This document shows, in pieces, positions 26,611 to 30,781 of a DNA stretch of 32,730 nucleotides. Source of the stretch: an uncultured Opitutaceae bacterium (GTDB taxonomy: Bacteria > Verrucomicrobiota > Verrucomicrobiia > Opitutales > Opitutaceae). Each line of letters starts with the position of its first letter. The first letter of the stretch is position 1. The stretch is from NCBI GenBank assembly GCA_903887455.1, contig CAISPT010000042.1:1-32730 (forward strand), given 5' to 3'. Made by a program: the position numbers and the translations under genes. The notes beneath the pieces were generated by a model. That model was not told where the DNA came from and made no database searches. It saw only the letters and a list, made by a program, of their open reading frames with translations.

Positions 26611-27759
26611 CTACCCGAGGAGCACCTGCCACTGGTTCTCCCGGGCGGCGCGGGCGGCCTTCAGCGCCCCGATGGCGACGTAGCGCTGGAAGTCCTGGCC
26701 CGCGAGCCGGACCTTGGGGGACTCGTATCCGTCGTCGGCAAGGCGCTTCTGGAGCACGGTGTCGATCCCGCGAATCTGGGAGCCGCCGCCGGTGACGATG
26801 ATGTTCTGTAGGAGCGTCACGACCGAGTCGGAAGACGCCCGGGCTATCAGCGAGGTGAGCGCCGGGTAGATCTTGTCCAGAAGCGCGTTGCAGGCGTTCC
26901 CGATCGCGTCACCGAGCTCGAGCGTGCGGCTCTTGCCGCCGATCACGACCTTCACCTCGAGGGGCTTGCGGCTCGGGCCCACGTAGGCGTGGGCCTCCTT
27001 GATCTCGCGCACGGTGATCACCGATAGGCCGTTGTTCGGGTAGGTCCTGTTTAGCCCGTCGAAAATCAGCTCGTCGATCGCGTCGCCGGCGAAGGCGATG
27101 CTGATTTGGTCGTCGCGCGTCGGGAAGTAGCCCTGGACGAGGCACAGGTCGCTCGTCCCGCCCCCGATGTCGATGAAGAGCGAGTTCACGACGGGGTCCA
27201 CGTAGCCGGACTGTTTCACCCTGGCGTCGTCGCGGTAGCCGAGTGCCGCGAGGAAGGGCTCGGGGATCAGGAGGATGTGCGAGAAGATGCCCGAAGCGGC
27301 CCTGCGAATCGCCTCTCGCGCCGCCTCCCCTGCGTTCGCCGGCACCCCGACGACGGCGCGGATCTCCGCCCGGCCCGTCGGGTCGGCCAGCAGCCGGATG
27401 TGCTGGAGGAAGTCGCGGGCGGACTCCGGGTGCGCGATGATTCCCTCGGCGAGCGGGGTCGCGAGCTCCACGTGGAGCATCTGCCGGAGGGCCTCCTCGC
27501 CGAAGAGGATCTTGGCGTTGCCGGTGATGATCCCGTCGACGATGCCGTCCTTCACGTAGCCCACCACCGAGGGCACCACCTTGCTGACGGTGATGTCCGT
27601 GGTGCCGGGGTTGCCGGCCAGCACGCAGGACTTGTTGGTGCCGAGGTCGAGCCCCACAAGGAGGGCAGCCGGCTTTGTGCTGGAGGGGCGTACCGTGGAG
27701 GCCGCTAGGGGCAGCGTCGCCGAAGGCGAGGCGGGTTTTTCGAGGATCGCGGTGGTCAT
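26611..27759 (-). CDS. MamK/MreB-like bacterial actin
   Basis: The 382-residue protein has the actin/Hsp70 ATPase fold. Phosphate 1 reads GLDLGTNKSCV (residues 36-46), the EP motif is IPEPF (Glu167), phosphate 2 is FIDIGGGTSDLCLV (195-208) and the adenosine loop is VTGGGSQIRG (322-331). The order and wording of these blocks, together with AVVGVPA (135-141) and LLQNIIVTGGG, resemble MamK, the magnetosome actin, more than canonical MreB or DnaK, judged from memory of those families. An N-terminal Ala/Ser/Pro/Thr-rich extension of about 33 residues is unusual. No magnetosome gene is in the window. A 140-codon gene lies 36 bases upstream on the same strand and is probably co-transcribed. A polymer-forming cytoskeletal role is likely; the cargo is unknown. 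Confidence 0.85.
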   Translation of the reverse strand: MTTAILEKPASPSATLPLAASTVRPSSTKPAALLVGLDLGTNKSCVLAGNPGTTDITVSKVVPSVVGYVKDGIVDGIITGNAKILFGEEALRQMLHVELATPLAEGIIAHPESARDFLQHIRLLADPTGRAEIRAVVGVPANAGEAAREAIRRAASGIFSHILLIPEPFLAALGYRDDARVKQSGYVDPVVNSLFIDIGGGTSDLCLVQGYFPTRDDQISIAFAGDAIDELIFDGLNRTYPNNGLSVITVREIKEAHAYVGPSRKPLEVKVVIGGKSRTLELGDAIGNACNALLDKIYPALTSLIARASSDSVVTLLQNIIVTGGGSQIRGIDTVLQKRLADDGYESPKVRLAGQDFQRYVAIGALKAARAARENQWQVLLG

Positions 27760-27795
27760 GATCGGAGGTCGGTTTTCGTTTCGTTGCGGGAAATC

Positions 27796-28218
27796 CTAGG
27801 GGGCAGCCCGGCGATCCTGGGCCAGCATGTCGTCGATGAAGTCGGCGATGCCCCGGGACGCAGGTTCGGCCCCCGCGTGGCGGTGAGGCCGGGCGGCAGC
27901 CGCCTGGATCGGGCCGCGACCCTGCGAAGCCGCGGGGCGCTCGCCGAGCATCGGGATAAGGACCTCCGCAAAGGCGATTGCCTCGGAGACCCGCTCCCCT
28001 TCCTCGTCGAGGAGCCTCCTGAGGAGGGCCTCCGCCTCGTCCCTGTCGGGACTCGAAGCCTTGGCGGCGTCCACCGCCTCCTTAAGGTCGGTGAACTCCA
28101 TCCTCGAGGCCTCGGCTGAGAAGCCCTCGAACCTCAGGAAGCAGATGCGCCTGTAGATCCGCCCCACAAGGAGCCAGGGTGGATCGAATCGGTGGAGGGC
28201 TTCTGCCAACGCGCTCAA
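27796..28218 (-). CDS. Unknown small protein upstream of the actin gene
   Basis: I do not recognise this 140-residue protein. It begins with a helical, basic stretch (LVGRIYRRICFLRFEGFSA), then an acidic helix-rich section (DRDEAEALLRRLLDEEGERV), a low-complexity linker rich in Ala, Pro, Arg and Gly at about residues 95-122, and a distinct end, GIADFIDDMLAQDRRAAP. Such a linker plus short amphipathic C-terminal motif is common in proteins that bind a partner through their tail. The start is TTG at 28218; the first in-frame ATG is at 28101, which would give 101 residues but lose the conserved-looking basic helix. It precedes the MamK-like actin by 36 bases on the same strand, so an accessory role for that filament is my inference. 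Confidence 0.68.
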   Translation of the reverse strand: MSALAEALHRFDPPWLLVGRIYRRICFLRFEGFSAEASRMEFTDLKEAVDAAKASSPDRDEAEALLRRLLDEEGERVSEAIAFAEVLIPMLGERPAASQGRGPIQAAAARPHRHAGAEPASRGIADFIDDMLAQDRRAAP

Positions 28219-28264
28219 GGTTGACGCACTGGACAGCCCGCCGCGCCCCCGGTTCGCGTGAATC

Positions 28265-28486
28265 TTATCCCGACTTCATCCCGACGTAGATCTCCTCAAC
28301 CTTGGTCCGGGCCCAGGGATTCTTCCTGAGGAACGTCAGGCTCGACTTGATGCTCGGGTCGAAGAGGAAGCACCGGATCGGCACCCGCTTTCCAAGTTCG
28401 CGCCACCCGAACTCCGCGACGAGCTCGGTGAGAAGACGTTCCAGCGTTATTCCGTGGAGGGGATCGTTGGACTTGTGGCCGGTCAC
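28265..28486 (-). CDS. VF530-family (DUF2132) small protein
   Basis: The 73-residue product matches the VF530 family, small proteins reported to have DNA-binding character: [20 protein letters not shown], then GWRELGKRV, then [20 protein letters not shown] and VEEIYVG. Length agrees with the family (about 70-80). The GTG start overlaps the stop of an upstream 47-codon frame by 4 bases (GTGA). It lies 46 bases upstream of the 140-codon gene on the same strand. Function in the cell is not established for the family. Confidence 0.88.
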
Positions 28487-28864: not shown

Positions 28865-30781
28865 ATGAAGACCATGACCATAGGAAAAAAGATAGCCCTC
28901 GGATTCGTCACGCTGATCATCCTCTGCGCCCTCCTGGGGCTCGGTTCGGTCGTGAGCATGAAGTCCGCCGAGACCAACGCCCGCGCCCTCGGCTCAGCCT
29001 TCGTGCCCGAGGCCGCGATTGCCGGCCGCTTGGAGAGCGAGATGTGGTCCATCCGCCTTGCCGTCCGAAGCTACGGCTTCACGGGGGAACCGTCCTACGC
29101 GTCCGAGGCCCACGCCCTTCTTGGCAAATTGCACGACGACATCAAGGTCGCCCAGGCCCTCTCGGCGGACCACCCCGAGCTCGTGAAGCTGAAGACGCAC
29201 CTGGCGGAGCTCACGCCCCTGCTAGAGATTTTTGAGAAGTCCACGGAGAGCACCATCGCGAAGAGCTCCGAGGTTGCGGCCGGCCGCGAGCGCATGAACA
29301 AGGCCGCCGCGGACTTCCTAGCCAACATTGACACGCTGATCGCCTCGCAGAGCGGCCAGTTCAACGACGAGATCGCCGCCACCGCAGCGGATCAGGAAAA
29401 GCTGAAGCTGCGCCTTCACAAGCTCATGCTTGTGGAAGAGGTCCGCGGCCTCGGAAACGCGGCCCGGGTGGCCGCCTTCAAGTCCCAGGCCCTCCGGGAC
29501 CCCTCCATCATGGACGCGGGGCTCGCGGGTTTCGCGGCGATGGACAGGAAGTTCGACGAGCTTCTGTCCCTCCTGAAGCTCCCGAAGGACGTCGAGGAAC
29601 TCAACCAGGTCCGCTTGGACGCCCACACGTACAGGGACATCATGACCCAAATTAAGGCCAACTACGTCGAGCTCGATGAGATCTCCAGGGGCCGCGTCGA
29701 GGTCTCCGACAAGCTGATCGCCCTCACGAGCGAGACCGCCTCGGCGGGCATGGACCGCACGGTGTCGGCGGCGCAGGACTCGACCGCCAAGCTCGGGAGC
29801 TCGACCATCGGCATCTATATCGGATTGGCCGTCGCGCTCTTTCTGGCCTCGGGCATAGCGTTCCTGATCATCCGCGGCATCAGCCGGGTCCTCTCACACG
29901 TGGCCCTCGCGCTCCGTGACGCCTCGCACCAGGTCTCCGCCGCCTCCAACCAGGTCTCGTCCTCCAGCCAAACGCTGGCCCAGGGTGCAAGCGAGCAGGC
30001 CGCCTCCCTCGAGGAAACAAGCGCATCGCTCGAGGAGATCAGCGGGACCACCAAGCGCAACGCCGAGAGCGCGCAGAACGCGCACGTCATCTCCGGGGAG
30101 AGCCGCAACGCCGCAGACCAGGGCACCAAGCAGATGCAGGAGATGCTCACGGCCATGAACGCCATCAAGGCCTCGGCCGACGATGTCTCGAAGATCATCA
30201 AGGCGATCGACGAGATCGCGTTCCAGACGAACATCCTGGCCTTGAACGCTGCCGTCGAGGCGGCCCGCGCAGGCGAGGCCGGCATGGGATTCGCGGTGGT
30301 GGCCGACGAGGTGCGAAGCCTCTCCCAGAGGGCCGCCAAAGCGGCCAAGGAGATCGGGACCATGATCGACGACTCCATCTCCCGCACGACGGTAGGCGTG
30401 GGTCTGAGCTCCCAGGTCGCCGCCACCCTCAGCCTGATCACCGAGAAGGGTCACAAGGTGAACGAGCTCGTCGCCGAGATCGCGTCGGCCTCAGGCCAGC
30501 AGAGCGAAGGCATCACGCAGGTGAACACCGCCGTGGCGCAGATGGACAAGGTCACGCAGTCGAATGCCTCGACGGCCGAGGAAACAGCGGCTGCGGCCGA
30601 GGAGCTGAGCGCGCAGGCCGCATGCCTGAGCGAGTCCGTCAACGAGCTCATGGCCCTCGTCGGCGGCAACGCGACGGAGCCGATCGAGCGCGCGGCTTCC
30701 GTCAAGATCGAGAAGCCCCGCCTGCCCACCCGCACGGCGCCGAGGGCCAGGGGGCAGGAGGCCATGACCTTCTCCAACTAG
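28865..30781 (+). CDS. Methyl-accepting chemotaxis protein without a recognisable HAMP domain
   Basis: The 638-residue receptor has membrane span 1 at about residues 11-31, a large periplasmic helical domain of about 280 residues, span 2 at about 314-337 and a cytoplasmic signalling coiled coil. The hairpin tip that binds CheA and CheW is [20 protein letters not shown] followed by [38 protein letters not shown] is a typical methylation helix. Immediately after span 2 the sequence goes into [20 protein letters not shown] and the methylation helix; I cannot find the usual 50-residue HAMP with its Pro and central Glu. The C terminus lacks a CheR-binding NWETF-type pentapeptide. No che genes are adjacent. 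The ligand is unknown, but the helical ectodomain suits a 4HB-type sensor. Confidence 0.92.

Follow-up and report, generated by a model that had tools for sequence, protein, structure and literature searches.

The locus described here raises the question of why the gene of an actin-type ATPase is preceded so closely by a small gene of no known family, and what the two products might do together. The window, as we call the whole stretch of 32,730 nucleotides analyzed, comes from an uncultured Opitutaceae bacterium (GenBank assembly GCA_903887455.1, contig CAISPT010000042.1). Two open reading frames on its minus strand were confirmed, the actin gene at 26611-27759 and the small gene at 27796-28218, both in the same frame, with the small gene upstream and a gap of 36 bp between them, as the initial annotation had placed them. 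The features discussed below are the following.

26611-27759, minus strand: beeR, a BeeR-family actin-like ATPase of 382 amino acids with an ATG start (from NF053558, PDB 8r2n and the model alignment).
27664-27759, minus strand: codons 1-32 of BeeR, an Ala/Ser/Pro-rich disordered N-terminal extension (from the sequence, low pLDDT and PMC11929497).
27796-28218, minus strand: the partner gene (working name beeP), 140 amino acids with a TTG start, predicted first gene of a two-gene unit with beeR.
27940-28176, minus strand: partner residues 15-93, a predicted three-helix N-terminal domain (AlphaFold2 pLDDT 95-98; conserved family-wide).
27853-27939, minus strand: partner residues 94-122, a low-complexity linker (pLDDT 53-68; pairwise identity 21%).
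27811-27849, minus strand: partner residues 124-136, the C-terminal amphipathic helix IADFIDDMLAQDR (from the logo and a predicted helix at 124-138).
28229-28256, minus strand: a promoter-like element, CGAACC-N16-GTCCAG, 10 bp before the partner start and of ECF-type appearance (from its recurrence across loci).

The actin is complete, as had been noted, with matches above the cut-offs of Pfam MreB_Mbl and Actin and a full-length match to the NCBIfam BeeR equivalog NF053558. It is not, however, the MamK-type protein in an unexpected setting that the initial annotation took it for; it is BeeR, a separate published family. Against NF053558 it scores 591.4 bits (cut-off 530), with residues 33-381 aligned to positions 1-349 of the model, whereas its 222.9 bits against the MamK model NF040964 fall below the cut-off of 400. 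The NCBIfam MreB models give 63.6 and 58.5 bits, where 293 and 365.75 are required, and the protein falls outside the ordinary MreB and Hsp70 groups. The best solved relative is the BeeR filament of Opitutus terrae (PDB 8r2n, E 1.9e-184), on which the predicted actin model superimposes with a Z score of 45.9 and an rmsd of 2.2 over 353 aligned residues at 76% identity, compared with a Z score of 36.7 and an rmsd of 2.0 over 320 residues at 29% identity for MamK. Curated family scores and the published tree (PMC11929497) thus settle the placement of the actin.

BeeR was described in 2025 by Bergeron et al. as a hollow three-stranded filament whose N-terminal extension is disordered and for which no function was known; its nearest relative is MamK, and its hosts are non-magnetotactic Verrucomicrobiota (PMC11929497). 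Membership of this family explains both the MamK-likeness of the actin and its odd N-terminus. The 32 Ala/Ser/Pro-rich residues preceding the actin core, modeled with low pLDDT, fit the disordered extension of 30-50 residues found throughout the family, so that the extension is present as first reported but is a known hallmark of BeeR instead of a peculiarity (PMC11929497). Eight of the 12 cross-strand contact residues named for BeeR are identical in the window's actin, assuming a numbering offset of 4; two of the other four positions are substituted and two may be affected by the numbering. The nearest named relative, at 88% identity, is encoded in the metagenome-assembled genome of an uncultured Opitutaceae bacterium, and a second actin-fold match in the window's own genome, on another contig, is 28% identical.

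The partner is a real gene, since it is conserved in dozens of genomes, evolves under purifying selection (dN 0.23, dS 0.99 and dN/dS about 0.23 between the window and locus L072; dN/dS about 0.06 to 0.31 across nine pairs) and keeps its TTG start in relatives, one of which (L073) shows a stop codon in frame shortly before it. The initial annotation assigned it to no known family, and this stands: the window's partner has no significant match in Pfam, NCBIfam, PADLOC or the PDB sequences, a profile of the partner family finds nothing significant among PDB sequences, and 49 members searched against family databases return only weak, single-member matches to unrelated families. Comparing the fold of the N-terminal domain with the PDB gave a best Foldseek E of 2.1 and, in VIA, a best Z of 7.0 (rmsd 3.1, 76 aligned), which is within the noise stated for helical bundles, as are all the VIA rows, FliS-like and MIT domains included. 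No RNA family was found in the region. The main text of the BeeR paper (PMC11929497) contains none of the terms operon, partner, upstream and gene cluster, and the partner appears to be unreported both there and in literature searches of incomplete coverage.

Conservation beside the actin was surveyed in 169 BeeR loci from two genome collections, 141 of them non-redundant. Five could not be evaluated, four ending within about 230 bases of BeeR and one being the decayed locus L191, which leaves 136. In 121 of these the partner lies directly upstream of BeeR on the same strand. The remaining 15 lack it there, and for most of them a genome-wide search found no partner, indicating that BeeR can exist without it. 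An iterated partner profile matches 124 of 13,819 ORFs, every one upstream of BeeR on its strand with the exception of L191. Of the 373 genomes surveyed in the order, 70 carry both genes, five BeeR only, seven the partner only and 291 neither, giving totals of 75 for BeeR and 77 for the partner (Fisher's test 4e-61, shared ancestry being ignored); most of the genomes surveyed are metagenome assemblies. The exceptions are mostly contig ends, misses or decaying loci. Among the BeeR-only genomes, G524 and G565 have the locus near a contig end, G025 and G072 are without a partner, and in G080 the iterated profile does find one (L021). Partner-only genomes are G487, at a contig end, G685, G383, G512 and G523, together with weak matches in G596 and G688 that are probably due to chance. 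Outside the order, four members of the class have strong partner scores, and in three of them the partner adjoins BeeR.

The genes around the pair differ by group and include permease, rpmA, sigma factor, lipoate synthase and HDOD genes, among others; in these otherwise unlike neighborhoods the conserved unit is partner plus BeeR. Two genomes, G071 and G074, carry both genes on different contigs with the motif kept, so linkage alone is an insufficient explanation for their joint retention. The open frame of the unlinked G074 partner (L210:870-1565, minus strand) also includes a hydrophobic stretch before the N-terminal domain, possibly a membrane-anchored variant or an overlong frame.

Genomes that have lost BeeR show which part of the partner depends on it. 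G512 and G523, both 96% complete and without BeeR, keep the N-terminal domain but carry an unrelated, motif-less tail, and the domain is under purifying selection between them (dN 0.15, with dS saturated at 2.1). G819, which belongs to another order and likewise lacks BeeR, keeps the N-terminal domain and a sigma54-type element, while its motif has eroded to a non-matching tail. We count these as two independent losses. The motif, rather than the entire partner, is tied to BeeR, and the same genomes suggest that the N-terminal domain has a second, BeeR-independent role. Elsewhere the two genes decay together: in G383, which has no BeeR, the partner is a pseudogene with four stops; in G685 BeeR carries an internal deletion; and in G002, from the window's genus, an in-frame deletion fuses the N-terminal domain of the partner to the C-terminal part of BeeR (L191:2998-3528). 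Divergent copies are matched as well. Locus L028, from the window's own genus, pairs a divergent BeeR with a correspondingly divergent partner, and where a genome holds two BeeR copies (L111, L142) each is accompanied by its matching partner type. Tree distances of BeeR and partner are correlated (r = 0.80; no more than 0.06 in any of 1000 permutations), which partly reflects common species history. The partner is inherited, transferred and lost together with BeeR.

Its anatomy offers a way in which the partner may act on the actin. AlphaFold2, run on an alignment of 49 partners, predicts helices at residues 15-30, 34-54 and 59-93 with pLDDT 95-98, followed by a linker of low confidence and, at 124-138, a C-terminal helix of moderate confidence. 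The linker and the short amphipathic motif at the end of the protein (GIADFIDDMLAQ), both noted at the outset, are therefore present. The linker varies between species in length and sequence, and mean pairwise identity among the 49 partners is 43% for the motif, 27% for the N-terminal domain and 21% for the linker; with twice the identity of the linker, the motif is constrained. Its consensus is I-x-D-[LFM]-[IL]-D-x-[ML]-L, represented in the window by IADFIDDML; it is amphipathic and acidic, with a net charge of -2, and residue 129 is Asp in 47 of the 49 partners and Glu in the remaining two. Because beeR and the partner share a frame with a single TAG between them, a read-through chain could be folded, which serves here as a modeling device only and implies no claim that read-through occurs. 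With BeeR in the chain, the pLDDT of the C-terminal helix rose from 78 to 89 (residues 121-130) and from 76 to 86 (residues 131-140) relative to the partner alone, the two models having used different alignments, with fewer motif sequences in the one containing BeeR; that of the N-terminal domain was nearly unchanged. The rise is consistent with docking of the predicted helix on BeeR.

The explanation that best accounts for linkage, co-inheritance, motif constraint and the loss of the motif without BeeR is one in which the partner would physically contact the actin, at a site that we infer. Judging from sequence comparisons, we consider it likely that the partner serves BeeR as a dedicated binding protein, an adaptor or regulator whose tail helix would dock on BeeR while its N-terminal domain binds something else. 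The two genes, partner then beeR, are probably transcribed from a promoter just ahead of the partner. With ATP, BeeR would assemble into a hollow filament of three strands, as its Opitutus terrae ortholog is known to do. The C-terminal helix, held on its flexible linker, could then dock as arcadin-2 and ParR do on their actins, either in the hydrophobic groove of a BeeR monomer or on the filament. The three-helix domain might bind a cargo, a membrane protein or a second copy of the partner, so that the partner would tether the BeeR filament or regulate it, for instance by nucleating, capping or depolymerizing it. The fuller proposal would make the partner the first actin-binding protein known for a three-stranded tubular actin, one that grips BeeR with its helix and brings a cargo or anchor with its N-terminal domain, which has a function of its own; we hold it tentatively, at slightly worse than even odds. 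The initial idea of a two-gene filament system accordingly survives insofar as a small dedicated partner is conserved beside the actin and its C-terminal motif probably acts; the MamK type attributed to that system does not.

Other readings have to be weighed against the adaptor. The partner could be purely a regulator of BeeR assembly, sequestering or depolymerizing the actin as arcadin-2 does and serving no cargo, with its helix competing for the groove of the longitudinal contact. Its gene adjoins beeR, its motif is constrained, and its anatomy resembles that of arcadin-2, whose last 17 residues alone depolymerize crenactin (PMC5173319), but its N-terminal domain is conserved as well, and the purifying selection on that domain in G512 and G523, where BeeR and the motif are gone, indicates a second function; we regard this reading as possible but rather unlikely. 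The motif might instead be a membrane-targeting amphipathic helix or bind a third protein, the partner then acting with BeeR indirectly. Amphipathicity would suit such a role, and a BeeR interface is not directly seen in the model; on the other hand the motif is acidic, with its near-invariant Asp and net negative charge, a character unlike that of typical membrane-binding helices. It is also absent where BeeR is absent, and the confidence of the helix rises with BeeR, all of which makes this possibility improbable. A DNA segregation system like ParMRC, with the partner as a DNA-binding adaptor, is brought to mind by a small gene with a C-terminal helix adjoining an actin, as in ParM-ParR, and by the VF530 DNA-binding gene next door. 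That gene, however, was seen next to the partner in the window's genus alone, the partner resembles no known DNA-binding family, and searches of 72,556 plasmids and 50,697 phages returned no BeeR match. In single-contig genomes, several BeeR genes are found on the main contig. We therefore give segregation very little credence. Ordinary synteny of an unrelated small gene without joint function is strongly disfavored and barely credible for us, because although adjacent genes often stay together in related genomes, this linkage extends across unlike neighborhoods in several families and orders, and the pair is kept when unlinked, decays jointly and diverges in matched pairs.

The adaptor reading can be compared with known systems. 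The window's actin is of the same family as Opitutus terrae BeeR (8r2n), with 76% identity in the core and the same N-terminal extension, but BeeR was described alone (PMC11929497), whereas here it has a conserved upstream gene. MamK is the nearest other actin in sequence and structure; its filament is two-stranded and that of BeeR three-stranded. No magnetosome genes are known to accompany BeeR. Arcadin-2 binds the hydrophobic groove of crenactin through its conserved C-terminal helix and depolymerizes it (PMC5173319). Like arcadin-2, the partner is encoded in a cluster with its actin and ends in a conserved helix, and by analogy it may occupy the equivalent groove; arcadin-2, however, is archaeal and depolymerizing, and no sequence similarity between the two has been shown. 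ParR binds ParM at its hydrophobic groove, at the same site that arcadin-2 uses on crenactin (cited in PMC5173319). The partner is proposed, again by analogy, as a groove-binding adaptor of this kind, but its N-terminal domain is a predicted three-helix one without any match to DNA-binding families, and its genes are chromosomal. ParR, for its part, is a plasmid protein that binds centromere DNA.

BeeR has a solved filament structure, yet no known function or binding partner, and a co-inherited partner is a direct handle on both: it offers a bait with which to look for cargo, a short motif for mutation, and lineages in nature that lack BeeR and the motif. If binding is true, the pair would be a bacterial chromosomal case of a small neighbor whose C-terminal helix controls an actin, a recurring design exemplified to date by ParR and arcadin-2, which act at a site shared with many eukaryotic actin-binding proteins. 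If the adaptor reading is true, BeeR would form a chromosomally encoded system for positioning or scaffolding in bacteria, with no relation to magnetosomes or plasmids.

Upstream elements differ between groups of loci. In the window's group, 26 of 48 loci have CGAACC-N15/16-GTCTAG or a close variant immediately ahead of the partner, against a background of 0.24% of windows, and in a Pelagicoccus/Puniceicoccaceae-like group 32 of 38 have a sigma54-type GG-N10-GC there (background 2.5%); these counts are descriptive, because the patterns were written after viewing the same sequences. Related operons are thus apparently under different sigma factors. The ECF-like form CGAACC-N15-GGTCTAG occurs at the equivalent place in L004, L005 and L072-L101, and the sigma54-type element in L025, L028 and L116-L149. 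In three partner-less loci (L099, L102, L112) the ECF-like element still stands some 300 bases ahead of BeeR, as though the partner had dropped out of the space between the two, which supports the partner as the first gene of a two-gene transcript. The exact 28-bp element occurs seven times in 20 genomes, five times at the partner-beeR operon and once each before a Dps-like gene (G015) and a Sel1-repeat gene (G046), too few sites to infer function from a regulon.

Two further candidates were considered and rejected. Flagellin is found in 63 of 75 BeeR genomes compared with 51 of 298 others, but flagellar motility was set aside as the function of BeeR, because one family gives much of the excess and the two traits vary independently inside genera; flagellin is missing from several complete BeeR genomes, and BeeR from several flagellated sister species. 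Flagellin has one match in the window's genome. The candidate third component was a small protein that ends in a transmembrane segment and is encoded between rpmA and the partner in many Opitutaceae loci; it is also common in genomes without BeeR and is thus more likely a neighbor. This protein (L216:2911-3285, minus strand, L077, L083, L088, L092 and others) has a charged N-terminal part and a Pro-rich linker, and in G032 (L216) a motif-like DVDAMLDDLLQ precedes the membrane segment. In the window itself, the VF530-type gene (PF09905) lies upstream of the partner at 28265-28486 on the minus strand, as it does in L008 and L010 of the same genus, and a methyl-accepting chemotaxis protein gene at 28865-30781 on the plus strand is divergent from the partner unit.
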